Positions 327 to 15,474 of a DNA stretch of 15,635 nucleotides are shown one piece after another; position 1 is the stretch's first letter, and every line of letters begins with the position of its first letter. The DNA lies in assembly GCA_902791885.1 (NCBI GenBank), contig CADAXO010000070.1, positions 1 through 15,635 on the forward strand, read 5' to 3'. This DNA is from Oscillospiraceae bacterium. GTDB lineage: Bacteria; Bacillota_A; Clostridia; Saccharofermentanales; Saccharofermentanaceae. The position numbers and the translations under genes were made by a program. The notes under the pieces are model-generated. The model saw nothing but the letters and a program-made list of their open reading frames with translations, did not search any database and had not been told where the DNA came from.

Positions 327-623
327 ATGGAAACTAGTATGAATAGAGAAGGCAATAAGCTTACTGTTGCTATCACAGGCCGTTTGGATACTCTTTCCTC
401 ACCTGATTTTGAGAAGGAGATGGAGCCCGCCATTCAGGGTATAACAGATCTCGTTATCGATCTTAAGAATCTCGACTATATCTCTAGTGCAGGTCTTCGC
501 GTTCTTCTCGGTCTTGCCCAGACAATGGAAGATCAGGGTAAGATGGTAGTTACAAATCCTAACGATGCTGTTATGGACGTATTCAGTGTAACCGGATTTG
601 ATGACATCCTTACTATTGAGTAA
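327..623 (+). CDS. STAS-domain anti-sigma factor antagonist (SpoIIAA/RsbV type)
   Basis: This 98-residue protein is a single STAS domain, the usual size for free-standing antagonists. The motif DYISSAGLRVLL (residues 50-61) is the family's phosphoacceptor loop; Ser54 is the likely target by alignment with RsbV, with Ser53 adjacent. In this family the unphosphorylated form binds an RsbW-type protein, kinase phosphorylation releases it, and a PP2C phosphatase resets it. Candidates for both partners lie 3.6 and 5 kb away. The start is supported by AAAGGAG nine bases upstream. The gene has its own promoter and terminator, so its level can be set apart from its presumed partners. No sigma factor gene is nearby, so the partner could control something else. 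Confidence 0.9.
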   Translation: METSMNREGNKLTVAITGRLDTLSSPDFEKEMEPAIQGITDLVIDLKNLDYISSAGLRVLLGLAQTMEDQGKMVVTNPNDAVMDVFSVTGFDDILTIE

Positions 624-649
624 AGATAAGCTTAATTAGTGATTGAATG

Positions 650-687
650 GCTGCCTCTGAATGTTTCGGAGGCAGCTTTATTTTGCG
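650..687 (+). terminator. Rho-independent terminator after the STAS gene
   Basis: GCTGCCTC (650-657) pairs with GAGGCAGC (669-676) around an 11-nt loop, followed by TTTATTTT on the plus strand. The minus-strand side has no T run, so the hairpin is at best a weak terminator for the convergent operon ending at 692. Confidence 0.85.
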
Positions 688-691
688 TTAT

Positions 692-2440
692 TTACCTGCG
701 GTCAACCTTGATCCTTGTCTGATTCATGCCGAGGGTGTAGTTATATTCGAAGGAACTTGCGATCTTGCGAAGTACCGTCATGCTTGAAAAATCATTCTTG
801 TTCTCCGGCATGGATGACAGGTCGTATGCCTTGCCGATGCTTCTGAAATCCATGAGTACGTAGTCGGGGAAGATCTTCAGGATTATGTCTATGCTTTGAA
901 CTTTGGTATCATGACTGTTCTCAAGAGTGTAGACGCTCATCTCCTCGGAAACCAATGCGGTAAGAGTTGTAAGTCTCGGTTCGAGATCCTGGGACTCGCA
1001 GAAGCTTTCAATATTGCCTGCAAGCTCAGATATATCCTCACGGCTCATCATGATGGTGCAGTCGAAGACGGGGACGGTAGTATCTTCCTTCTCAATAAGC
1101 ATAAAACGGCTGTATTTCCCGCCGGAACGCGCGCTGATCACAAGGTTGACTACAAGGATCACTGCAAGCATAAGTGCAGGCAGAAGTGCGAAAGCCTCCC
1201 ACAGGCCGTTGATGCCGTGAAATCTCGTAAGGATCAACGACAGAGGGATTATTCCGAGGAAACCGTCGAAAAGGCTTATGATAAATGCATATCCCTTGCG
1301 TCCGTTTACGGGGAAGAGGCACATATACATGAGTATGAAGCCTCTTGTGATGAATGATAGGGAGAATATGCGTAAGCCAATTATCGCAGGCTCGGTCATA
1401 TCTCCTCCAACGTTATACATATCGAGCACGAGCTTAGGGAACGCTTCGAAAAATACAAGTGCGATAAGATTCGCAGTGAACTGCACCGTCATAGCTGTCT
1501 TCATGAGTATGCGTATACCGGCGAAGTCTCTTTGACCGTAAAGCGATGCCGACATCGGTATCGTGGCATCAATGACTCCTCCTATGAGAATGGATACCAT
1601 GGAGACCGCCTGCATGCATACGGAGAATGTCGTGACTCCTGCCATGCCTGCAAGCCCGAATGCGAGGCTGTTTACAAAAGCAATCTTGATACAGTAGCCG
1701 ATCTGGTTCATAGCCGAAGGAAGACCTGTGGAGCAGATCTCCAGAAGGATCTTAAACTCTTTGGAGTTGATCTTAGCTAACGGCAGACGTATTTCCTTCG
1801 TAAAGTGGAAGAACAATACGATGATAAATCCTGCTGCATAACCTGTAAGAGTTGCATAAGCGGCGCCTTCAAGGCCCATTCCGCAGATGCCGATATAAAC
1901 GTAGTCCATCAGAAGATTAATTACATTGGCAGCTATATTGATTATTGTTCCTTTACCCGGGCATCCGAATGCAGGCATGAAGTAGATGATTACCTGAACG
2001 GGTATGATCACGATGGCTGAGAAGATAAGGCCTTTCACATAAGGAATAAACTCAGGATAGTATTCGGGCGCTTTGCACATCGAAGCGGTCATGGGATTTA
2101 AGAATATGATGCCGCCGAGAAGGATTATCACCGATATAAGTGAAGCGGTAATGAATGTTACCGAGAATACCGAATCAGCCCTTTTGATATCATGACGGCC
2201 GGAATAGACCGCATACAGTGCGGATCCGCCGATTCCCAAAAGCGTGTAGACCACGCCGTAAGCGGTAACGAGCGGGGAGGCCATGGTGATAAGGCTCATT
2301 GCATCTGAATTGATTAAATTGGATACGATAAGGCTGTCTACGAACTCGTTAAGAGACATAGCCATAATACTCATGACGGTAGGGAGCAGGAAGGTGAAGA
2401 ATTTTTCCTTCAGGATACTTCCGTTACGCTTGTTGCTCAT
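692..2440 (-). CDS. MATE-family transporter fused to a degenerate RsbW-like (GHKL) domain
   Basis: Residues 10-438 are a MATE exporter with about twelve hydrophobic segments. This family moves organic cations, drugs or small metabolites out of the cell using an ion gradient. The usual MATE length is about 450; this protein has 582 residues. The extra cytoplasmic part (about 455-582) aligns by eye with the RsbW-like protein encoded at 4209-4616: both share the region ending in GMN at the final strand. The nucleotide-binding residues are absent: the N-box Asn is Val (SEEMSV), DNG of the G1 box is SIG (534-536), and the GLGI of the G2 box is MTVL. It therefore probably binds a partner rather than acting as a kinase. 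The start ATG overlaps the stop of the ATP-grasp gene (ATGA), with AGGAG ten bases upstream, indicating translational coupling. Confidence 0.85.
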   Translation of the reverse strand: MSNKRNGSILKEKFFTFLLPTVMSIMAMSLNEFVDSLIVSNLINSDAMSLITMASPLVTAYGVVYTLLGIGGSALYAVYSGRHDIKRADSVFSVTFITASLISVIILLGGIIFLNPMTASMCKAPEYYPEFIPYVKGLIFSAIVIIPVQVIIYFMPAFGCPGKGTIINIAANVINLLMDYVYIGICGMGLEGAAYATLTGYAAGFIIVLFFHFTKEIRLPLAKINSKEFKILLEICSTGLPSAMNQIGYCIKIAFVNSLAFGLAGMAGVTTFSVCMQAVSMVSILIGGVIDATIPMSASLYGQRDFAGIRILMKTAMTVQFTANLIALVFFEAFPKLVLDMYNVGGDMTEPAIIGLRIFSLSFITRGFILMYMCLFPVNGRKGYAFIISLFDGFLGIIPLSLILTRFHGINGLWEAFALLPALMLAVILVVNLVISARSGGKYSRFMLIEKEDTTVPVFDCTIMMSREDISELAGNIESFCESQDLEPRLTTLTALVSEEMSVYTLENSHDTKVQSIDIILKIFPDYVLMDFRSIGKAYDLSSMPENKNDFSSMTVLRKIASSFEYNYTLGMNQTRIKVDRR

Positions 2441-4119
2441 CGTACGGATACTCCTACTACATATTTCCGGCCGCCGATCTCGACAAAATCCGCTTCCATG
2501 TTTTTGATCTTAAGAAGCAGCTTAGCGCCTTCTTCTTTGTATGTCAGGTATTCATAGGTGTTGCCCGGGATTATGACAGTACCTCCGGGCTTTACTTTGT
2601 CTATCGTGTCGAAAATGAGTTTTAAGCACTGAGCTTCTTTAATCCCGAGGAACGAATGGCTGTAGCCTAGGATAACGTAATCAAACCCCTTATGGGCATC
2701 ACATAACGTATCGGGAGTTACGACCATCATGCCTTCCTTCTCCTTAGCTTCGTCGCAGGCGGCAAGAACTGCTCCGTGACACCCGAAATCATCCGTGATC
2801 GCATCGATATCGTTGACCGGGATGTTCTCGTTTTTAAACCATCTTCTCGACATGCCGTCGTTAAACACGAATGCGAAATAATTATCCTCGATGAGCTTAA
2901 GCAGTTCGAGGTCTTTCATAACTGTCGACTCATCGTCATCCATAAGGTATATCGTTCCGCCGGAAGTATCGAGATCCTGTGTCTTCTCATAAATAACGGG
3001 AAGGTTGCTATCGCTTATCTGGGTGATATAAGTGCTCTTAAGCTGGTCTGCGATTATCTTGATGGTGTAGTCTTCCACTTCGAGTAAACGGGGGACCTTG
3101 ATCATCTTAAGCGCATATTTACGAAGCGGCTGATAAGGCTTATTCATGTCCTTCTTAAAAGAATCGGGATCAAGATAGGCATCGAGCATTGTATCGGTCT
3201 CGTGCTGGCCGAATGCCATATCGAGGAACTCAGCAGGCATGGAACCTCCCATGGGCCTGCAGTTGACCTCTACAAGAACCGGTCCTTTATCGTCTATGAA
3301 GTATTCGCCATGGATAACTCCGTACTTGAATCCTATGGCATCTGCAACCTTAAGAGCGTAATCAATGAGCTCTTTATGCTCATCTTCAAGCACCATGACA
3401 TTCTCTTCCCAGTCGTAGATATAACCGCCTTCAGAGGTTCTGGTCTTGTGATATCTTGTAATTGAATTAATCTTGTGAAGTCCGTTGCATGATGCCGTAT
3501 TAACCACATATTCGATTCCCGTTATACGCTCCTGGATAAGAACGTGAGTAATAGGTTTGCCGAAGATGTCGTTGGAGGTGAGAAGTTTATCAACGGCATT
3601 TCGAACTTCGTCTGTATTGTCACAGAGAAAAAGTCCCTGACTGCTTGCGCTTCTTACGGGTTTTACTACCACGTCCGCAAGTCCGTTCTCCTTGCAGAAT
3701 GCCACTGCTTCTTCGGATGAGATGACGGCCTTGCCCCTGATATAGCGTAATCCCGCGTTCTTTAATGCCTCATGCATGGCGTCTTTACGGGTCATGGCGG
3801 CGATATTTTTATAGGGGTTGCCTGTAAGTCCCAAGTCTTCTGAAAGCCTTGTGGCGAGCTCGACTGCGCCCTCGAATCCCGGAACAATGATCAGCGGATC
3901 GTATTCTCTGACCATTTCCAAAGTTTCTTCATATTTATAGGAAGCTTTGATTATCTCGGGTTTGTGGTAAAGGATGCGGTAATATTTCTGACGGTATTCA
4001 TCAATATCCTCGGAATCTCCGGGAAGCTCCATAACGACAGGTATGCAGCCTCTTCTGACTGCGTCTTCCACGAGATTATAGCCGGTAGACACCGCCTCGA
4101 TGATGATGATATTACGCAT
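2437..4119 (-). CDS. ATP-grasp ligase (amino-acid ligase-like) with extra C-terminal domain
   Basis: This 560-residue cytoplasmic protein has an N-terminal pre-ATP-grasp fold (MRNIIIIEAVSTG onward), then an ATP-grasp domain. Lys153 in VVKPVRSASSQG is the likely ATP-binding lysine, QERITGIEY (196-204) is the adenine-side strand, and EVNCRPMGG (284-292) supplies the Mg-binding Glu284 and Asn286. This set is typical of enzymes that activate a carboxylate as acyl phosphate and join it to an amine, such as L-amino acid ligases. Residues 420-560 are extra; GFDYVILGY (478-486) and VKPGGTVIIPG (509-519) resemble the end of a class I methyltransferase, but a clear SAM-binding motif is not obvious. It is first in an operon with the MATE exporter, so its product may be the exported molecule. 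Its substrates cannot be read from the sequence. No Shine-Dalgarno precedes the start. Confidence 0.8.
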   Translation of the reverse strand: MRNIIIIEAVSTGYNLVEDAVRRGCIPVVMELPGDSEDIDEYRQKYYRILYHKPEIIKASYKYEETLEMVREYDPLIIVPGFEGAVELATRLSEDLGLTGNPYKNIAAMTRKDAMHEALKNAGLRYIRGKAVISSEEAVAFCKENGLADVVVKPVRSASSQGLFLCDNTDEVRNAVDKLLTSNDIFGKPITHVLIQERITGIEYVVNTASCNGLHKINSITRYHKTRTSEGGYIYDWEENVMVLEDEHKELIDYALKVADAIGFKYGVIHGEYFIDDKGPVLVEVNCRPMGGSMPAEFLDMAFGQHETDTMLDAYLDPDSFKKDMNKPYQPLRKYALKMIKVPRLLEVEDYTIKIIADQLKSTYITQISDSNLPVIYEKTQDLDTSGGTIYLMDDDESTVMKDLELLKLIEDNYFAFVFNDGMSRRWFKNENIPVNDIDAITDDFGCHGAVLAACDEAKEKEGMMVVTPDTLCDAHKGFDYVILGYSHSFLGIKEAQCLKLIFDTIDKVKPGGTVIIPGNTYEYLTYKEEGAKLLLKIKNMEADFVEIGGRKYVVGVSVR

Positions 4120-4125
4120 GGTGCT

Positions 4126-4134
4126 ATTATAACA
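4126..4134 (-). promoter_or_regulatory. Extended -10 promoter of the ATP-grasp/MATE operon
   Basis: The minus strand reads TGTTATAAT (4134-4126), a perfect extended -10 element. Only six bases separate the hexamer from the ATG at 4119, so transcription should start at or next to the A of the start codon, giving a leaderless mRNA. A weak TTAATA lies 19 bp further upstream. Confidence 0.6.
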
Positions 4135-4164
4135 CTCAAATAAAACTTATTATTAAAAATAATG

Positions 4165-4170
4165 TATAAT
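4165..4170 (+). promoter_or_regulatory. Putative -10 of the RsbW/acyltransferase/phosphatase operon
   Basis: A perfect TATAAT lies 38 bp before the start of the RsbW-like gene, which would give a leader of about 32 nt. No good -35 is seen. It is back to back with the ATP-grasp promoter, about 34 bp away, so one regulator could act on both. Confidence 0.5.
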
Positions 4171-4208
4171 ATTCCTATCCTGAGGAAAGAAGGCAGTAGT
4201 TAAGACAG

Positions 4209-4616
4209 ATGCGAGAGTTAAAGATTGCGGCTTTGAACGAGAATCTGCCGGAAGTGCTTAAGTTTATCGGTGAGAGTCTCGACAGCGCCGGATGTAAACC
4301 TGCCGACAGCACACGCATTGAAGTGGCTGTTGAAGAGATATTCAGCAATATTGCTAATTATGCTTATAATCCCATGACCGGATCAGCTACGGTCAGTGTG
4401 GAACTTTCTGAAAATCCGTTAAAGATCATTATAAGCTTCTCCGATAACGGAAAGCCATATAATCCGCTTGCCAAGGAGGATCCGAATGTGAAACTGGCTG
4501 TGTCTGAACGTAAGCGCGGCGGACTCGGGATCTTTATGACCAAGAAATTCATGGATAATGTCGCTTATGAATATAAAGACGGCATGAATATCCTGACTAT
4601 TGAGAAACTATTCTGA
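4209..4616 (+). CDS. RsbW/SpoIIAB-like ATP-binding protein (anti-sigma/switch kinase)
   Basis: This 135-residue protein is a complete GHKL-type ATPase domain of the usual RsbW length. The N-box EEIFSNIANYAY (42-53) holds the Mg-coordinating Asn46, DNGKPYNP (79-86) is the G1 box, and RGGLGIFM (103-110) is the G2 box. Proteins of this type phosphorylate a STAS antagonist and sequester a sigma factor or other target; the STAS gene at 327-623 is the likely substrate. The start is fixed by an in-frame TAG four codons upstream. The only purine-rich site, AGGAAAGAAGG, is rather far away (about 15 nt), so translation may be modest. It is the first of three tightly packed genes. Confidence 0.88.
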   Translation: MRELKIAALNENLPEVLKFIGESLDSAGCKPADSTRIEVAVEEIFSNIANYAYNPMTGSATVSVELSENPLKIIISFSDNGKPYNPLAKEDPNVKLAVSERKRGGLGIFMTKKFMDNVAYEYKDGMNILTIEKLF

Positions 4617-4617
4617 T

Positions 4618-5664
4618 ATGGGAAATAAGAACAGATTCGAATATATAACCGATACCAAGACTGCTGCGGTTGTTTTGGTTGTTCTTCTGCACTGCATGCT
4701 TTTCTTCGCGACCGAAGATTACTACTCGGAGAGAGCTTCGTATTCGAGCAGCACAGTGGAATACTTAAGCAACATTCTTAATTCGTCCCTGGTGTCTAGC
4801 CTGGTATGCTGCTCGGGCTTCCTTTTCGCGCACAGTGTGCTTGCCAAAGGAAAAACTGCGGGTGCTCTTGTTAAGTCGAGATCCTCAAGGCTCCTTCTTC
4901 GTTATTATCTGTACGGTGCGCTCTGGCTGGTGCCTCTTTATACGCTGTTTGATATCAGCTGCTGGGGAAGGGAATACGGCGATTCCTGGCTTGAATCATA
5001 CAAGTCCATGGCTCTCGGTGTGTTCTCGGATCATCTGTGGTTCCTGCTGATGCTTTACTGGGTATCGTTGGTATTCATTTTTATGATCCCGCTGCTTCGA
5101 AAAGATCTTATTATCGTTATGGGGCTGATCACGCTGGGACTCGCAGTAATTATCGAGCTGTTCTGCACATTCGAATACTTTAAGATAAGTCAGATATCCA
5201 CATACCTGCCCTGCTTCTTTATCGGCATATGCTTATACAGATACAGGGACAAGATTGAGAAGATTCCGACCGGTGTGCTGTGGGTACTGACCGGATGCTT
5301 CTTTATCACGACACTTTTCTATCAGAGTATGGCTGATGTGCACTTTTCCCTTTACTGGCTGTTTAAAGCCTGCGGAGCGGTGTTTATGGTGCTTCTGTTC
5401 ATGTCCTTGGACAGGATTCCTTTGCTTGTTAAGGTAAGAGAGGACGGTGTGGTGGATTTTGCCAGGAAGAACAGCCTGACGCTGTATCTTCTGAACTGCC
5501 CGTTTATTTATATTTATTTCAGAATGCTTGCACCTTTGACAGAGGAGAATATAATAATCTGCGTTCTTGCCAATTTCGTCTTATCCATGATAAGTTTACT
5601 TATAATGGCTTGGTTTATAGAATTGTGTAAGACAAAGATATTAAGTGTAATGAAACATGAGTAA
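4618..5664 (+). CDS. Acyltransferase-3-like integral membrane protein
   Basis: This 348-residue protein has about ten membrane segments and matches the acyltransferase 3 (OafA/Oac-like) layout. The first segment ends in the conserved-type histidine (LLHC, His25), SGFLFA is at 66-71, HLWFLLMLYW at 139-148, and a late NSLTLYLLNCPF segment at 285-296 is where many relatives read S-x-x-YLxH. Family members transfer acetyl or other acyl groups to sugars, peptidoglycan or small molecules at the membrane. I chose the ATG one base after the RsbW stop; a TTG at 4600 in the same frame would add six residues. It overlaps the phosphatase gene by 8 bp. The late histidine appears replaced, so activity is not assured. 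The substrate is unknown. Confidence 0.7.
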   Translation: MGNKNRFEYITDTKTAAVVLVVLLHCMLFFATEDYYSERASYSSSTVEYLSNILNSSLVSSLVCCSGFLFAHSVLAKGKTAGALVKSRSSRLLLRYYLYGALWLVPLYTLFDISCWGREYGDSWLESYKSMALGVFSDHLWFLLMLYWVSLVFIFMIPLLRKDLIIVMGLITLGLAVIIELFCTFEYFKISQISTYLPCFFIGICLYRYRDKIEKIPTGVLWVLTGCFFITTLFYQSMADVHFSLYWLFKACGAVFMVLLFMSLDRIPLLVKVREDGVVDFARKNSLTLYLLNCPFIYIYFRMLAPLTEENIIICVLANFVLSMISLLIMAWFIELCKTKILSVMKHE

Positions 5665-7408
5665 ATTTGTTAGAACGACAAAAGGCATAGTAAAGCAGAT
5701 CACTTATCCGGTATTTTTCGTATCGGTGATCTTTATTGTGATCGCGGTTATTACCTTTATCCTCTTCAATATGACGGTTCTCCTTAATCAGAGATTCGAG
5801 TATACGACTCAGATCGCAGGAGATGCTGTAGTAACCATCGAGGAATACAAGAGTCTGGATTTCCTCGTTCCTTATTGGCATGACCATTACGATGAGATGG
5901 AGTTCTTCTATAATGACCGTTATTCGGATGAGGAGCATGTAACTACCGAGATGGTTCTTGCTTTGGATGAAGACGGACAGAGGCTTTTCGCCGAAGTCTG
6001 TTACTATCAGCTGTGCCAGGACTTCGACAGGATCAAGACTGCTTACGGTCCGATGTTCCTTTACAGCTTCAGTATCGACGGAGACAACCAGTTCTTCTAT
6101 ATCACAGGCACCAAGGAAGGGGAGGCAAGAGAGAGCTCCGGCGGTGAGCTTTTCGAGCTCGGATGCACATATCCTTATCAGGAAGGCCGTTATCCCACCC
6201 TCGACAGTCTGATACAGACGGGTACCCCTGCAGACAGGATCGAGCTGTCGCTTAATAAGGATGCCGACAGAACAGCCGTACATGTATTTGCTCCCGTAAC
6301 GTGTAACGGACAGATGGTAATGATCGTGGGCGTATCCACTGACTGGGAAGACCTTATAAGCTACACACTGTATCTGACCGGATTCCTTGCTGCATTCATT
6401 GCAATTCTTGTTGCATCTTTGGTACTGCTGTTCTTCAGAATGCTTAGAAAGAATGCCGTAGAGCCGCTGTTCAAGGAGCGCGACATCATCAAGGTCTATG
6501 AGCAGGATAAGGACTCCGCCAAGGCTTTACCGGAACTTAAGTCGATCAATTCCGACAACGAGATCGAGGAACTCGCAGACGCGTTCTCGTCGATGCTTGT
6601 CGAGATTGACCGTTATATGGACGAGACCCAGAAGGCTGCGGTTGAGAAGGAAAGATTAGGTGCGGAGCTCAGCATGGCTGCTAACATTCAGGCAAGCCAG
6701 CTGCCGAGCACTTTCCCCGCTTTCCCTGACCGAAAAGACTTTGACATCTATGCTTCTATGACACCGGCCAAGACAGTAGGCGGTGACTTCTATGATTTCT
6801 TCCTTGTCGATGATGACAACATCGCGTTGGTAATGGCGGATGTATCGGGTAAAGGTATTCCCGCTTCGCTGTTCATGATGGTATCTAAGCTCCTTATCCA
6901 GAGCAGGATAATGATGGGAGAAAGCCCTGCAGAAGCTCTGTCCAACGCGAACGCGCAGCTGATGCAGAATAACGCGGCTAAGCAGTTCGTTACCGTATGG
7001 CTTGCCATATTCAATCTTAAGACAGGCAAGGGAATTGCTGCCAACGCAGGTCACGAACATCCTGCGATAAGAAGAGCAAACGGTCAGTATGAGCTTTCGA
7101 TCTACAAGCATTCGGCTCCTGTTGCCACGTTAAAGAAGCTGAAGGTTACGGATCACGAGTTCGAACTGCATCCCGGCGATTCACTGTTTGTATATACAGA
7201 CGGTGTTGCCGAGGCAAATAACTCTGCCGATGAATTGATGGGTGAGGAGAGAGTGCTCGCGGCACTTAACCGTGACCCTGATGCTGATTCGGAGACAACC
7301 TGCAAGAATGTTATGGACGGTATTAATGAGTTCGTTGCAGGCGCAGAACAGTTCGACGATATTACAATGATGTGCTTCAAATACTTCGGACCGGATAAGG
7401 CCGGGTAA
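5657..7408 (+). CDS. Membrane-anchored SpoIIE-family PP2C phosphatase with sensor and HAMP-like regions
   Basis: This 583-residue protein has a TM helix at about 14-40, an extracytoplasmic segment of roughly 190 residues (40-232) that may sense a ligand in a Cache-like way, a second TM at 233-261, a HAMP-like linker to about 325, and a PP2C/SpoIIE domain (330-578). Metal and catalytic motifs are intact: GGDFYD (375-380), ADVSGKG (394-400), NAGHEHP (463-469), TDGVAEA (514-520) and QFDDITMM (565-572). The layout matches RsbU/RsbP-type phosphatases, which dephosphorylate STAS antagonists, here probably the protein encoded at 327-623. The start overlaps the acyltransferase gene by 8 bp, so translation is coupled. 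The gene ends 22 bp from a convergent gene, and no terminator with a T run is visible there. Confidence 0.92.
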   Translation: MSKFVRTTKGIVKQITYPVFFVSVIFIVIAVITFILFNMTVLLNQRFEYTTQIAGDAVVTIEEYKSLDFLVPYWHDHYDEMEFFYNDRYSDEEHVTTEMVLALDEDGQRLFAEVCYYQLCQDFDRIKTAYGPMFLYSFSIDGDNQFFYITGTKEGEARESSGGELFELGCTYPYQEGRYPTLDSLIQTGTPADRIELSLNKDADRTAVHVFAPVTCNGQMVMIVGVSTDWEDLISYTLYLTGFLAAFIAILVASLVLLFFRMLRKNAVEPLFKERDIIKVYEQDKDSAKALPELKSINSDNEIEELADAFSSMLVEIDRYMDETQKAAVEKERLGAELSMAANIQASQLPSTFPAFPDRKDFDIYASMTPAKTVGGDFYDFFLVDDDNIALVMADVSGKGIPASLFMMVSKLLIQSRIMMGESPAEALSNANAQLMQNNAAKQFVTVWLAIFNLKTGKGIAANAGHEHPAIRRANGQYELSIYKHSAPVATLKKLKVTDHEFELHPGDSLFVYTDGVAEANNSADELMGEERVLAALNRDPDADSETTCKNVMDGINEFVAGAEQFDDITMMCFKYFGPDKAG

Positions 7409-9495: not shown

Positions 9496-10437
9496 ATGGA
9501 AGATCAGGCTTTGGTAATGAAGAATGTCTGCAAGGATTTCAAGGTGCTGAACCGCCACGAAGGTTTGAAGGGAAGCATACAGGATCTTTTCTCACGTGAT
9601 TACAAGACCATAAGCGCGGTCAAGGATGTGTCGCTTGAGGTCAAAAGAGGCGAGATCATAGGATACCTGGGACCTAACGGAGCCGGTAAGTCCACTACCA
9701 TCAAGATGATGACAGGCGTACTTGAGCCCACATCAGGCGAGATCCTCGTAAACGGCAAGGTGCCTTATAAGAACAGAACAGAGAACTGCGAGAACATCGG
9801 AGTTGTATTCGGACAGCGTTCACAGCTGTGGTGGTCGCTGCCGCTCATCGAGTCTTTCAAGCTCTTAAGAGACCTGTATATGGTCCCCGAGAAGCAGTAC
9901 GAGGACATGATCGAGCTGTACCGCTCACTCGTTGATATCGAGCCGATCATCAACAAGCCGGTTCGTCAGATGTCACTCGGTCAGAGAACACTCTCTGATA
10001 TCCTCGCAGCGTTCATTCATAACCCTGCGATCGTATTCCTCGACGAGCCGACAATCGGTCTCGATGTCTCGATGAAGGACAAGATCCGTGCGCTCATCAA
10101 GGGCCTTAATAAGGAGAAGAACACAACAGTTATCCTTACAACTCACGATATGGGTGACGTCGACGCTCTCTGCCGAAGGATCGTCATCATCGATAAGGGA
10201 ACGAAGATCTACGACAACGACATCGAGCACCTGAAGGGCTACTTCGGTTCCTACAGAACACTGCACATGAAGCTTGCAGATGACACATGGGAGCAGATGC
10301 TCATTGATGAGAAGACAACCGACGTTATGCAGGTTATTACAGAGAAGCAGAAAGTCACGAAGATAAAGGACATCCGTCTTGAGGAGATCTCCACAGAGGA
10401 GGTCATCAAGAAGATCTACGAAGGAGAAGCAGTATGA
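9496..10437 (+). CDS. ABC-2 type exporter ATP-binding protein
   Basis: The 313-residue protein is a single nucleotide-binding domain: Walker A GPNGAGKST (59-67), Q-loop Gln107 in FGQRSQLWW, signature MSLGQR (159-164), Walker B with Asp183-Glu184 (FLDEPTIGLD) and switch His217. The FGQRSQLWW motif and the pairing with two unlike permeases are characteristic of a widespread clostridial exporter group (COG4586 with COG4587 and COG3694) whose substrate is unknown. The C-terminal 80 residues are an accessory region. GGGAGG is five bases before the ATG. The gene's stop overlaps the next start (ATGA), so the three genes form one operon. Confidence 0.93.
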   Translation: MEDQALVMKNVCKDFKVLNRHEGLKGSIQDLFSRDYKTISAVKDVSLEVKRGEIIGYLGPNGAGKSTTIKMMTGVLEPTSGEILVNGKVPYKNRTENCENIGVVFGQRSQLWWSLPLIESFKLLRDLYMVPEKQYEDMIELYRSLVDIEPIINKPVRQMSLGQRTLSDILAAFIHNPAIVFLDEPTIGLDVSMKDKIRALIKGLNKEKNTTVILTTHDMGDVDALCRRIVIIDKGTKIYDNDIEHLKGYFGSYRTLHMKLADDTWEQMLIDEKTTDVMQVITEKQKVTKIKDIRLEEISTEEVIKKIYEGEAV

Positions 10438-11243
10438 ATCCGCGAAAACTATTTGCACTGACACGTGCGGGCATAATGGAGTCGCTGCACTACAGGCTCG
10501 GTACATTCGTTACGCTGTTCGCGAACCTCATTTACCTCGTACTCGTGTACTACCTTTGGAAGGCGATCTACGCTTCCTCGGGAGTAGATGTGGTCAACGG
10601 CATGACCTTCACAGATACTATGATCTATCTGATCCTCGCAACGAGTCTTTTTAACTTCCTCGAGATGTTCGTAGTATGGGACATGAGCCGTTCGATCCAG
10701 TCGGGAAAGATAATCCTCGACCTGCTCAAGCCGATGAAGTTCAGGACATACACTTTCTGGAGTTATTCGGGAAGCCATGTAGTATCGTTCATCATGACGT
10801 TCATTCCTACATTCATTGTAGTTATGATCATCACAAAGGGCGCGATCCCCATCGGCATGAACCTTGTGTACTTTCTGATCGCAACCGTGTTCGCGCTCAT
10901 CGTTAACTTCAACATCGAGATGATCGTCGCGACGATCTGTCTGTACACGGAATCCACATGGGGCATCAACATCGTAAAGGAGACTATCGTGCTGCTCCTT
11001 TCCGGTGCGTCCATTCCTCTTGCGTTCTTCCCGGAGAAACTGAGGACTGTGGTGGACTACATGCCTTTTCGCGCTGTGTATGACATCCCGCTCACTATCC
11101 TGCTCGAAAAGAACGGTTCCGATACGCTGCAGGGGCTGCTGCCGATGTTTGGCTTCCAGCTTTTGTGGATCGTTATCCTGACTGCAGCCGGTACGCTGTT
11201 CTGGAACTACTCGGTGAAGAAGATCACCGTGAACGGAGGCTGA
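10434..11243 (+). CDS. ABC-2 type exporter permease, first subunit
   Basis: The 269-residue protein has six predicted membrane segments, the first at about 22-42, and no long soluble domain, as in ABC-2 family permeases of the COG4587/COG3694 type. A cytoplasmic stretch (SRSIQSGKIILDLLKPMKF) between the second and third segments resembles the coupling region that contacts the ATPase in this group. It overlaps the ATPase gene by four bases and the next permease follows after one base, which indicates equal, coupled synthesis. It presumably pairs with the next protein to form the membrane channel. Confidence 0.88.
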   Translation: MNPRKLFALTRAGIMESLHYRLGTFVTLFANLIYLVLVYYLWKAIYASSGVDVVNGMTFTDTMIYLILATSLFNFLEMFVVWDMSRSIQSGKIILDLLKPMKFRTYTFWSYSGSHVVSFIMTFIPTFIVVMIITKGAIPIGMNLVYFLIATVFALIVNFNIEMIVATICLYTESTWGINIVKETIVLLLSGASIPLAFFPEKLRTVVDYMPFRAVYDIPLTILLEKNGSDTLQGLLPMFGFQLLWIVILTAAGTLFWNYSVKKITVNGG

Positions 11244-11244
11244 T

Positions 11245-12054
11245 ATGGAAAAGAAGAAAAGAGGTTTTCGCTTCTACGCTGATATATACAGAAAGATCCT
11301 CGTGCAGGATCTGAAGACCAAGATGAGCTACCGTGCGGACTTCATCATATCCACTATCGGTATGATCATGGTCAACCTGTCGGGCTTTGTGACGTTCCTG
11401 ATCCTGTTCCGTAACTTCCCGACGATCAACGGCTGGGACTACTACCATATGCTGTTCCTGTACGGATTCTCGCTGGTCGCGCTGACACCTGTGCAGTGCT
11501 TCTTCGACAACAACTGGAACTTAAGATTCCACGTCACAAGCGGTGACTTCATCAAGTACTGCTTCAGACCCGTGAACGTATTCTTTTACTTCATGTCGGA
11601 GGTGTTCGATGTAAAGGGTTTAGGTCAGTTGGCGTTCGGTATAGGAACGCTGATCTACGCTTGGGTTCATATCGGTATCCCGGTAACACCGCTTGTTATC
11701 GCTAAGCTCATTGTGTTCCTGCTTACGGCATCGCTGTTCATGATCGCATTGATGAATGCTGCTGCGGCTACTTGTTTCTGGATCCGTAACTCGGGCTATG
11801 TAATGGTCATTATGTTCAGATTCAAGGACTTCGCGAAGTACCCGGCTTCGATCTTCTCGGGGATCTTCAGCTTCCTGTTCACGTTCATCATCCCGATCGC
11901 GTTCGTTGCTTACTATCCGAGTCTTGTCATTCTCGAGCCCGACAATGTGCCTCTGTTGTCCTGGGCCTCTCCGCTGCTCGGTATCCTGTTCTTTTACTTA
12001 AGCTATAAGTTCTGGATGCTGGGAGTAAGAAAGTACGACTTTACGGGATCTTAA
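11245..12054 (+). CDS. ABC-2 type exporter permease, second subunit
   Basis: The 269-residue protein also has six membrane segments. It has the same general layout as the previous gene product (SGDFIKYCFRPVNVFFYF occupies the same coupling position as SGKIILDLLKP) but is clearly divergent, so the two probably form a heterodimer. GGAGG lies five bases before the ATG and inside the end of the previous gene. It is the last gene of the operon, followed by a strong terminator. In a 30-codon sample near its start, 22 codons end in G or C, against 11 of 30 in the metal-binding lipoprotein gene. Confidence 0.88.
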   Translation: MEKKKRGFRFYADIYRKILVQDLKTKMSYRADFIISTIGMIMVNLSGFVTFLILFRNFPTINGWDYYHMLFLYGFSLVALTPVQCFFDNNWNLRFHVTSGDFIKYCFRPVNVFFYFMSEVFDVKGLGQLAFGIGTLIYAWVHIGIPVTPLVIAKLIVFLLTASLFMIALMNAAAATCFWIRNSGYVMVIMFRFKDFAKYPASIFSGIFSFLFTFIIPIAFVAYYPSLVILEPDNVPLLSWASPLLGILFFYLSYKFWMLGVRKYDFTGS

Positions 12055-12744: not shown

Positions 12745-13398
12745 TCAATATTGCTTTTTCTTGAACGCGTATATTGTCAAAAACGCGGTGCAGACAGCAC
12801 AGATTCCTCCGATGACAAGAAATAATACTCCCATATGTTCATTGTCACTTATATAGTAGGGGACGATCATCGAAGCAAGATCATGAGGTGTAAAGCCTGC
12901 TTCAGTCATAGCTTCTCTGCAGTATTCAATCTGCGAGCCGTTCATCTTTTTTAAGTAACCGTCGATATGTATGGTTACCGTATTGTATTCGACGGTTCCG
13001 CTTCTGTCTCTCCACCATCTTTCTGTGTTGGCGACTATAGTCTCAGCTGTGGGAATATCTGCGCTGTTGACTTTAACGCCGATGACTCTGTCGATGTCGT
13101 AGTAATCATTATAAGAATCGTATTCAACATGGGGCATAAGATAGTCGCGCTCAGTCTCTCTGCCGTCGCGGCTCGTTGTCATATAAGCGCCTATAAGGAT
13201 ATCGACATCCATCTCGACATGCTGACCGCTCTCAAGATAATTCCAGTCCATATGGGTCTCGTTAAGATCGATGGGCTTCGCATTCATTCTAATTAAATCG
13301 ACCGTGCCCATAATAAGAAGGGCTATGGTTAAGATGGCAAGAAAGCCGCATCTTACTAAAGTTACTATCCTTGGTTCGTTTCTGAGAAAGAAAAACAT
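12745..13398 (-). CDS. Two-TM membrane protein of unknown function
   Basis: I do not recognise a named family. The 217-residue protein has a TM helix at about 14-36 and another at about 190-212, followed by a short basic tail (FKKKQY). Between them lies a 150-residue region with no enzymatic motif, and by the positive-inside rule it should face outward. That region is rich in Asp and Tyr (for example EYDSYNDYYDIDRVIGVKV) and has a Trp-Trp pair (ERWWRDRS). GGAGG lies five bases upstream of the start. It follows the phosphoesterase gene by 14 bases and is probably cotranscribed with it. Confidence 0.85.
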   Translation of the reverse strand: MFFFLRNEPRIVTLVRCGFLAILTIALLIMGTVDLIRMNAKPIDLNETHMDWNYLESGQHVEMDVDILIGAYMTTSRDGRETERDYLMPHVEYDSYNDYYDIDRVIGVKVNSADIPTAETIVANTERWWRDRSGTVEYNTVTIHIDGYLKKMNGSQIEYCREAMTEAGFTPHDLASMIVPYYISDNEHMGVLFLVIGGICAVCTAFLTIYAFKKKQY

Positions 13399-13412
13399 CT
13401 TATCCTCCGCTG

Positions 13413-14123
13413 TTACTTTATTGATTCGAATTCACCCGTAACTGTGTCTATAACGGGAAATTCGCATGTTCCTATAGGTGTCTTGTCCTTATATGTTGAG
13501 AAGACGTCGCATGAGATAACGGCTCCTTTTCGCGCTGTGTACTTCACGGGTGTGTGTCCTACAACCTGAGTGTAAACGTATTCTTCCCATATAGGCTCGT
13601 TCGAGTACTGCGGGCGGAACCACAGGGGAGAATTCTCACTCCACATCACTTCCGGGGGAAGCTTGTTTACGGCGCGTATCACTTTATCGATATCGTTCCA
13701 CTTCGTACGGTCGACGTGAGCTTTCACGAACTTCTCAGAAAGCCCTCCGTGCATGAAAAGCGTGTTATCGATCCTGTGGATGTATGTCATCCTGTCGAGG
13801 GAAGGGAGCGCGTTCTTAAGAGCGTTAAGCTTGCTTGTTACGGTGCTTATGGCATAGGTAGAGAATCCGGTCTCCAAAGCCTCCCACACATAACTTAAGT
13901 CGTGGTTGCCGTAGCACCACAGCGTATCGGGATGATCCTTCCCGAATCTTATTGCACGGTCGAAGGTCTGCTCGTAAAGGCTGATGTTATATTCCTGATT
14001 GAAGTCATCGGGGAGATCCATAAGACAAACGGCACGCGAAGCTTTTCCTTCTTTAAGAAGCTCATCCGCGCGGTCGAAAATATGAGGCTTAAGGTGAACA
14101 TCGGGGATGACTAAGACCTTCAT
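13413..14123 (-). CDS. Calcineurin-like metallophosphoesterase
   Basis: The 236-residue cytoplasmic protein carries the metallophosphoesterase metal-binding set: Asp8 and His10 (IPDVH), Asp36 (MDLPDD, where the family usually has GDxxDR), Asn73-His74 (GNHD), His125 (MHGG) and the closing Gly189-His190-Thr191. Members hydrolyse phosphomono- or phosphodiesters with two metal ions; this sequence recalls the Ser/Thr protein phosphatase/ApaH-like branch, but the substrate is not determinable. The change of Gly to Met before Asp36 is unusual. Ribosome binding is poor: GGAG lies 16 bases before the ATG. It is first in an operon with the membrane protein gene. Confidence 0.87.
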   Translation of the reverse strand: MKVLVIPDVHLKPHIFDRADELLKEGKASRAVCLMDLPDDFNQEYNISLYEQTFDRAIRFGKDHPDTLWCYGNHDLSYVWEALETGFSTYAISTVTSKLNALKNALPSLDRMTYIHRIDNTLFMHGGLSEKFVKAHVDRTKWNDIDKVIRAVNKLPPEVMWSENSPLWFRPQYSNEPIWEEYVYTQVVGHTPVKYTARKGAVISCDVFSTYKDKTPIGTCEFPVIDTVTGEFESIK

Positions 14124-14487: not shown

Positions 14488-15474
14488 TTGAAAAAGATTC
14501 TTGCTTCTGTTCTCGCTGCCTCAATGGCGGCGGGTGCTTTATGTGCGTGCAGCTTAAACGCTGATACAAATGATAATAACAAAGATAATTTAAGTATTGT
14601 GACTACTATCTTCCCCGAGTATGACTGGGTCATGGAAGTTCTTGGTGATAACCCTGCAGGTGCAGAGGTTACGATGCTTCTCGATAACGGTGTCGATCTT
14701 CACAGTTTCCAGCCTACTGCTGAAGATATTATGACGATAGCAGACTGTGATCTGTTCATATATGTCGGAGGTGAATCCGATGAGTGGGTCGAAGATGCTC
14801 TTGCCGAATCAGTTAATGAAGACATGGTTGTCATCAACCTTCTTGAGGTCTTAGGTGATTCTGTTGTTGAAGAAGAGATCGTCGAAGGCATGGAAGCCGA
14901 AGAAGAGGAGGAAGCAGAAGAAGGTGAGGAAGAGCCCGAATACGACGAGCATGTATGGCTGTCTTTAAGAAAAGCGGCAGTGATCGTTGATGCCATAAGG
15001 AATGCATTGATTACGGTCGATCCTGCTAACGAAGCCGTATATAACGATAATGCTTCTTCCTATATCGATGAGCTTAATGCTCTTGATGCGGAATACATTG
15101 ATGTTGTTGATAATGCATCATGCGGTACTTTGCTCTTCGGCGACAGATTTCCGTTCAGATACATGACGGATGATTACGGTCTGAATTACTATGCCGCATT
15201 CGTCGGATGTTCAGCTGAGACTGAGGCCTCATTCGAGACCGTCATGTTCCTTGCGGGTAAAGTTGATGAGCTGTCTTTACACACGATCATGACGATCGAA
15301 GGAACAGATCACAGCATCGCCGAGACAATAGCAGAGAACTCGAATGTCCCGGATATTCAGATCCTGACACTTGATTCCATGCAGTCGACGACATCTTCAG
15401 ATGCCGCTTCCGGAACAACATATCTGTCGGTAATGAGAGACAATCTTGATGTGCTTCGTGAAGCACTGTCTTAA
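14488..15474 (+). CDS. ZnuA-like metal ABC transporter substrate-binding lipoprotein
   Basis: The 328-residue protein starts with a lipoprotein signal peptide, with Cys21 in LCAC as the probable lipidated residue. It follows the cluster A-I metal-binding fold: IVTTIFPEYDWV (37-48), His72 in DLHSFQPT, an acidic loop (126-154, mostly Glu), then DEHVWLS with His155. In ZnuA proteins a third ligand is His in an H-x-x-F-x-Y motif; here the site reads GDRFPFRY (218-225), so the His is replaced by Arg220. The loop is normally His-rich and here is Glu-rich. It captures metal, most likely zinc, and hands it to the membrane transporter. The start is TTG, supported by GGAGG nine bases upstream. The ZnuC-like gene follows after 11 bases. 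Confidence 0.88.
   Translation: MKKILASVLAASMAAGALCACSLNADTNDNNKDNLSIVTTIFPEYDWVMEVLGDNPAGAEVTMLLDNGVDLHSFQPTAEDIMTIADCDLFIYVGGESDEWVEDALAESVNEDMVVINLLEVLGDSVVEEEIVEGMEAEEEEEAEEGEEEPEYDEHVWLSLRKAAVIVDAIRNALITVDPANEAVYNDNASSYIDELNALDAEYIDVVDNASCGTLLFGDRFPFRYMTDDYGLNYYAAFVGCSAETEASFETVMFLAGKVDELSLHTIMTIEGTDHSIAETIAENSNVPDIQILTLDSMQSTTSSDAASGTTYLSVMRDNLDVLREALS

Follow-up and report, generated by a model that had tools for sequence, protein, structure and literature searches.

Partner switching among genes for membrane proteins

In the partner switches of Bacillus, RsbV/RsbW/RsbU-SigB and SpoIIAA/SpoIIAB/SpoIIE-SigF, the RsbW kinase phosphorylates a STAS protein, and a membrane-bound SpoIIE phosphatase removes this phosphate when its outside domain is stimulated. 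What such a switch acts upon when no sigma factor gene accompanies it is the question raised by a 15,635-nucleotide contig of an Oscillospiraceae bacterium (CADAXO010000070.1, analyzed at its full length and hereafter called the window), where six genes at positions 327-7408 encode a STAS antagonist, a MATE exporter with an RsbW-derived tail, an ATP-grasp ligase, an RsbW-like kinase, a membrane acyltransferase (AT3) and a SpoIIE phosphatase. An earlier reading made from the letters alone, referred to here as the sequence-only reading, had recognized these six families within these coordinates, which are correct, and Pfam confirmed the families. It had also proposed that the STAS protein switches the exporter or the ligase, and as a whole this interpretation is supported in part: we consider it evenly balanced whether the locus is a sigma-independent partner switch with membrane proteins as its outputs.

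The three switch proteins are well preserved. First, the STAS antagonist (98 residues; 327..623, plus strand) was identified as such by both PF01740 (1.5e-17) and TIGR00377 (3.9e-22), and it carries a YISSAGL loop, which we take to be the phospho-serine holder of RsbV and SpoIIAA. Second, the stand-alone RsbW (135 residues; 4209..4616, plus strand; PF13581 1e-22) keeps all of its GHKL boxes, namely, the N-box EEIFSN, the G1 box SDNG and the G2 box GGLGIF, so that its description as an intact RsbW-like kinase holds; its profile finds RsbW (6m36, 2.1e-7) and SpoIIAB (0.001) in the PDB. Third, the SpoIIE/PP2C phosphatase (583 residues; 5657..7408, plus strand; PF07228 2.9e-44) contains the motifs GGDFYDFF, DVSGKG and DDITMM. 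Its two hydrophobic stretches (about residues 19-37 and 242-260) enclose some 204 residues that probably form an outside domain, which fits the proposal that it bears a sensor, although no sensor family was identified there. A search of viral contigs with this protein gave no match.

The window thus shares the three families and their intact motifs with the Bacillus systems, and differs from them in the RsbW-like domains present on membrane proteins and in the absence of a sigma gene. Indeed, Pfam and NCBIfam scans of its proteins, outside of which lie the ABC genes at 9496-12054, revealed no sigma-factor domain, and this bears out the claim of a cluster with no sigma factor.

The exporter carries an apparent pseudo-RsbW tail

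The MATE protein (582 residues; 692..2440, minus strand; PF01554 2.9e-14) has both MatE domains and a MATE fold. Its AlphaFold2 model, with a predicted local distance difference test score (pLDDT) of 89.3, has 4mlb as best Foldseek match (E 4.2e-15), and among the 50 matches listed only MATE, WzxE and MurJ transporters appear, with the tail not covered. This C-terminal tail (residues about 454-582; 695..1081, minus strand) had been called RsbW-like. Pfam does not see it on the window protein, but when a profile built from 31 such tails was compared with one from 10 stand-alone RsbW proteins, the probability was 94 and the E value 1.1e-7, against 0.2-0.6 for unrelated control profiles. PF13581 is detected at E<=1 in eight of the 31 tails (best 7e-4), the window tail not being one of these. 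We refer to window-like MATE tails as class A and to the tails of other RsbW-tailed MATEs as class B. Both sets are akin (E 5e-26), PF13581 is detected at E<=1 in 23 of 25 class B tails, and the class B profile reaches RsbW 6m36 in the PDB at 1.7e-5; the PDB sequence search with class A tails alone gave no RsbW, its best result being a chance ferritin match (E 0.065). Moreover, the strand and helix order predicted for residues 458-580 (AlphaFold2 model, pLDDT 89) is RsbW-like. The profile comparison, the kinship to class B and this predicted order together indicate that the tail derives from RsbW.

In the window tail, what remains of the ATP site reads EEMSVY at the N-box, where the Asn is gone, and RSIG at G1, where the Asp is gone; the G2 box is lost as well. 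Counting one row per distinct motif set, the Asn is lost in 33 of 34 class A tails, the tail of locus L024 being the one that keeps it; the Asp is lost in all 33 tails that span the G1 box; and none of the 34 counted has the GGLG of the G2 box. Class B tails keep the Asn in 27 of 39 cases and the Asp in 39 of 39. Seven residues are invariant in class A (A3 numbering), namely, E46 and E47 in the old N-box, G83 in the old G1 box, and D65, Y115, G118 and N120 elsewhere. Judged from these motifs, the window tail is a degenerate pseudo-RsbW of RsbW ancestry, and since its ATP-box Asn and Asp are lost, kinase activity is unlikely. Therefore, the window encodes one apparently real kinase, whose boxes are kept, and one pseudo-kinase tail.

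In a tree of MATE domains, a single branch (100/100) that spans Bacillota and Spirochaetota unites 26 class A rows with four that lack a tail. Three of the tail-less rows (L030, L034 and L035) are cut by contig ends, and the fourth (L020) ends within its contig. None of the labels class A, class B and plain falls to one side of a single branch (5, 3 and 6 changes, respectively). L114, which has a tail, lies inside B, and nine B rows, mostly on long branches, lie outside the main B branch.

RsbW domains on other membrane proteins

RsbW is also joined to other membrane proteins. Genomes and fetched loci are labeled here G and L, respectively, G001-G004 being the genomes of close relatives. In two of seven loci fetched round SpoIIE relatives in other genomes of the family, RsbW and a membrane acyltransferase-type domain form a single polypeptide, encoded between STAS and SpoIIE (L186, 4951-6450; L187, 7032-8540). 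Pfam places PF13581 at residues 7-132 and PF01757 at residues 139-480 of the L186 fusion; the L187 fusion shares 69% identity with it across 495 residues, and the RsbW parts of both are 63-67% identical to the window RsbW. Because of these fusions, the window AT3 (Acyl_transf_3; about 4600/4618..5664, plus strand; PF01757 3.2e-20) is no less likely an output than the MATE, and it may be the first target of RsbW, which qualifies the earlier proposal that STAS acts upon the exporter or the ligase. Within L182-L184, SpoIIE is the only one of these families present. A further candidate for the SpoIIE cluster, at 10979-13129 of L046, was rejected, as it is an HD-domain protein.

The same fusions suit an explanation that we regard as the main rival, and as a serious if minority possibility: the partner switch controls only AT3, or a distant target, while the ligase-MATE pair came to lie between STAS and RsbW either accidentally or in order to be expressed with them, and the tail is itself the sensor of a small molecule. 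The invariant E46, E47 and G83, which occupy old ATP boxes, could then serve a new ligand site.

A family of SDF symporters provides a third type of membrane protein. Their N-terminal 150 residues are RsbW-like (hhalign probability 96-98, E 7e-9 to 1.1e-12, from a profile in which 59 of 118 sequences were aligned), and among the matches listed a precomputed PF13581 annotation is present on one of 120 SDF symporter homologues (P0241-P0360). The gene for one RsbW-headed symporter lies between MATE and SpoIIE in L024 (14228-15928). An ABC ATPase with an RsbW-like tail (L022, 13297-14391) was not used, as it came from the iterated profile alone and Pfam sees only its ABC part.

Taken together, these proteins allow a broader and tentative reading, to which we give slightly less than an even chance, in which gut anaerobes generally use RsbW-derived domains as docking plugs on their membrane proteins. 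STAS proteins, set by RsbW kinases and SpoIIE phosphatases, would thereby switch both transport and the modification of the envelope directly and not through transcription, and the class A tail would be a former kinase that has become a pure STAS receptor. The plug would sit at the C-terminus of MATE exporters and at the N-terminus of SDF symporters and of a membrane acyltransferase.

Switch genes near RsbW-tailed MATEs

Within the family, STAS, RsbW or SpoIIE genes lie within 8 kb in 12 of 40 RsbW-tailed MATE loci, against one of 40 plain MATE loci (L130-L169; Fisher 0.0015), where the tail loci (L083-L122) are the high-scoring rows fetched from a longer list of fusions, and four of the case genes (L062, L063, L071 and L072) already had STAS or RsbW neighbors in short loci before this score-based choice. 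The 40 tail loci include two of class A and, in L114, a short frame in which the tail is retained. We also analyzed 69 fusions in 20 genomes reached from class A loci, with expected counts taken from gene density; this analysis excluded SpoIIE rows of less than 100 bits, four rows of plain MATEs and five STAS_2 rows that fell below cut-off, one of which adjoins a tailed MATE in L177, and it treated the two split rows of G134 as one place. SpoIIE lies within 8 kb of four of 25 class A MATEs (expected 0.8, P 0.009). For class B, STAS or SpoIIE is found near nine of 44 tails (expected 2.5, P 0.001), SpoIIE alone near six (expected 1.5, P 0.004) and STAS alone near three (expected 1.1, P 0.09).

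Some of these neighbors appear to be operonic. STAS-APH is followed by MATE-RsbW with a 4-base overlap in L174 and at 17 bases in L175, and SpoIIE by MATE-RsbW at 12 bases in L172. MATE, ligase and SpoIIE genes occur in operon-like order in L025 and L028, and MATE, another type of ATP-grasp gene and SpoIIE in L170, with L171 the same by length and order. Both the SpoIIE enrichment near class A MATEs and these arrangements, which combine MATE with two kinds of ATP-grasp gene, or other tailed MATEs with STAS-APH or SpoIIE genes, speak against control of AT3 only.

The STAS domain fused to an APH-type small-molecule kinase was seen by or near RsbW-tailed MATEs in L087 (7139-8701, which also has an RsbW domain), L090 (4706-5896), L174 (6850-8064), L175 (6232-7431) and L177 (9663-10853). 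In L177 a cytidylyltransferase-like gene lies between STAS-APH and the tailed MATE. Separately, L047, L048 and L049 (G001-G003) hold SpoIIE-X-STAS-X-RsbW clusters with proteins of about 205 residues, whose EE motif recalls the N-box; the two such proteins of L047 (8207-8824 and 9184-9798) have no Pfam match.

The cluster consists of two modules

The six-gene order is common to the window and loci L001-L003, the SpoIIE gene of L002 being cut by the contig end. The next relative, G004, breaks this order: STAS-RsbW-AT3-SpoIIE forms a compact operon (L050, 9254-12994), and ligase-MATE is found on another contig (L004). The cluster is, therefore, made of two modules, STAS-RsbW-AT3-SpoIIE and ligase-MATE, and the ligase-MATE pair was either gained between STAS and RsbW or lost from there. 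Conserved co-occurrence of all six families as one cluster, expected from the sequence-only reading, was not borne out beyond L001-L003, as they are split in G004 and in G042/G061. The G004 operon, compact without ligase-MATE, speaks for control of AT3 only. In L050, the gene 3' of SpoIIE (13041-13748) encodes a protein whose start resembles, by eye, that of the phosphoesterase-like protein at 13413-14123 of the window (MKxLVIPDVHLKP).

That unrelated genes merely came together in a genome rich in SpoIIE and STAS is, in our view, very improbable. Each of G001-G004 does have 4-6 SpoIIE and 4-7 STAS matches, yet the order is the same in L001-L003 even though only one of nine flanking window genes has a match there (S58, in L003), and both the gene overlaps and the co-occurrence and enrichment tests argue for association.

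Within the ligase-MATE module, the ligase (560 residues; 2437..4119, minus strand; PF13535 1.8e-13) is, over residues 1-414, of the L-amino acid ligase type by both ATP-grasp fold and sequence. It differs from the L-amino acid ligases BL00235, BacD and RizA in having an extra C-terminal alpha/beta domain (residues about 421-560), for which the PDB search gave nothing under E 0.4 and which VIA-align barely covers. The idea that this domain is half a methyltransferase was rejected, as the strand order was read by eye only and neither PDB nor VIA-align supports it. Going by its family, the ligase may make a dipeptide-like, amino-acid-ligase-type product. It was found in six of 115 genomes of the family, the same six that carry a class A MATE, and it adjoins the MATE in 26 of 35 decidable loci, so the assumption that ligase and exporter belong together stands.

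In G061 (L188, 3440-5140) and G042 (L189, 3772-5472) a histidine biosynthesis operon ends with the ligase gene. No his genes were found beside the ligase in the window, L001-L046, L083, L084, L170 or L171, and the his link is therefore known for these two genomes only.

A possible mechanism

From the known chemistry of these families, RsbW would phosphorylate the STAS protein, and SpoIIE, stimulated through its outside domain, would dephosphorylate it. In a first step, RsbW may work with, or on, the neighboring AT3, a pairing suggested by the RsbW-acyltransferase fusions of two relatives, and binding of STAS would alter this activity. In a second step, dephosphorylated STAS may also bind to the pseudo-RsbW tail of the exporter and so gate export of the ligase product; the tail itself should be unable to phosphorylate STAS.

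Several observations weigh against such a sigma-independent switch of membrane proteins. The lid and the ATP boxes, presumably part of the surface used by SpoIIAB, are lost in class A tails, so that STAS may no longer fit them. STAS is within 8 kb of none of 25 class A MATEs outside the window group (expected 0.6), which also favors control of AT3 only, and STAS or SpoIIE near four of 25 (expected 1.4) reaches only P 0.05. The proposal that STAS switches the exporter or ligase gains from the contrast between tailed and plain MATEs but not from the STAS counts near class A MATEs elsewhere. All these P values are optimistic, because loci from related genomes are not independent. Gene linkage is also imperfect: the two halves of the cluster lie apart in G004, as do ligase and MATE in G042 and G061, and AT3-SpoIIE occurs without STAS or RsbW in the fetched stretches of L181 and L185. 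BLAST does not match the fused acyltransferase to the window AT3 at E<=0.01; what recurs is therefore the gene arrangement rather than the orthologue. Finally, given the several STAS and SpoIIE matches in each of G001-G004, the partners may lie elsewhere.

Sigma factors elsewhere in the genomes

It is also conceivable, although we find it unlikely, that RsbW is an ordinary anti-sigma factor for a sigma gene elsewhere, with the membrane genes as regulon members or simply neighbors; the classical sequence features of RsbW, STAS and SpoIIE would be accounted for in this way. The sequence-only reading had named such a sigma factor as the alternative partner, and the genomes answer this differently. 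G002 and G003, which bear the cluster, have one Sigma70_r3 match each, in RpoD-sized frames (560 and 601 residues), and none besides, an absence that is provisional because these are metagenome-assembled genomes and may be incomplete. G001 and G004 have two matches each. The extra one in G001 is a weak match, below cut-off, in a 296-residue protein, and that in G004 is a 269-residue sigma-like protein on the same contig as the STAS-RsbW-AT3-SpoIIE operon, about 12 kb away; the type of both is unsettled, and both could be taken in favor of a distant sigma partner. Sigma70_r2 proteins judged by reading to be of the extracytoplasmic function (ECF) type account for three of G001, three of G003 and one of G004, in a reading that left out the G002 proteins and two of G001; those of G003 are its three other Sigma70_r2 proteins and speak against such a partner. 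RsbW domains fused to membrane proteins are, moreover, unfit for an anti-sigma role.

Some Sigma70_r2 proteins are unusual in themselves: those in L126 and L125 have 438-692 residues and look ECF-like with long C-terminal extensions, and three such long proteins lie within one 12-kb stretch of G001.

Comparison with known switches

Sigma-free partner switches have precedents. In the available portions of the reports on SiaABCD of Pseudomonas aeruginosa, a PP2C phosphatase and a kinase set the phosphate on a STAS-like protein whose partner, SiaD, is a diguanylate cyclase (PMC7647112, PMC8457831). The likeness to the window is the absence of a sigma factor, and the difference, as far as those portions go, is the target, a cyclase there and here, as proposed, a transporter and an acyltransferase, with an RsbW-derived domain on the proposed target. 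In the Mla system of Escherichia coli, the STAS protein MlaB binds the transporter subunit MlaF and affects assembly and function, and its authors, in the part of the article at hand, question whether phosphorylation controls MlaB (PMC7367683). As described in that part, MlaB-MlaF belongs to an ABC transporter with neither an RsbW/SpoIIE pair nor an RsbW-like domain on the transporter, unlike the window (PMC7367683). SypA/SypE of Vibrio fischeri is, like the window, a STAS switch; the target of SypA is given as unknown, and the sections available name no transporter as target (PMC8256260). Searches of open-licence papers brought up no description either of MATE or SDF transporters that bear RsbW-like domains or of STAS controlling such transporters, and nothing on control of transporters by RsbW or STAS besides MlaB and SulP/SLC26.

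Sigma-free switches and a STAS protein that acts on an ABC transporter are known; RsbW-tailed membrane proteins as switch targets may represent a wider, testable principle. SpoIIE matches are numerous (1-15 per genome across 20 genomes) and region-3 sigma matches few (1-3 per genome in eight genomes, RpoD included), which leaves the targets of many switches open, and transporters and acyltransferases that carry the RsbW fold are concrete candidates. If a sigma-independent switch of membrane proteins is true, it would give a natural answer to the question posed for MlaB, whether a transporter can be gated by a phosphorylated STAS protein, and export of a dipeptide-like product would be tied to sensing of the outside. 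In ruminant-gut bacteria, a switch known for factors that read genes, found here beside or fused to membrane proteins, may switch those proteins directly.

Gene boundaries, promoters and other features

The MATE start overlaps the ligase stop by four bases. The listed AT3 frame opens at TTG 4600, with an in-frame ATG at 4618. In the convergent gap between STAS and MATE, a terminator-like hairpin (649..677, plus strand) has a 13-pair stem and a T-rich tail; it has the longest stem of nine terminator-like sites in the region, against 6.8 expected from shuffling.

Ligase and RsbW are separated by a divergent intergenic region of 89 bp (4120..4208), for which divergent promoters had been proposed. 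All four sequences compared (window and L001-L003) keep a -10-like hexamer on both strands, which favors this proposal, whereas the consensus promoter scan placed no site in 4120..4208 and its total did not exceed that of shuffled sequences. The hexamer facing the ligase (4119-4131) ends six bases from the start codon, with no ribosome site seen, and for these reasons the ligase-MATE message may be leaderless.

Further along the window, the gene at 14488-15474 encodes a ZnuA/AdcA-type metal-binding lipoprotein with an acidic low-complexity stretch, in the place where, we assume, proteins of this type usually have a His-rich loop.

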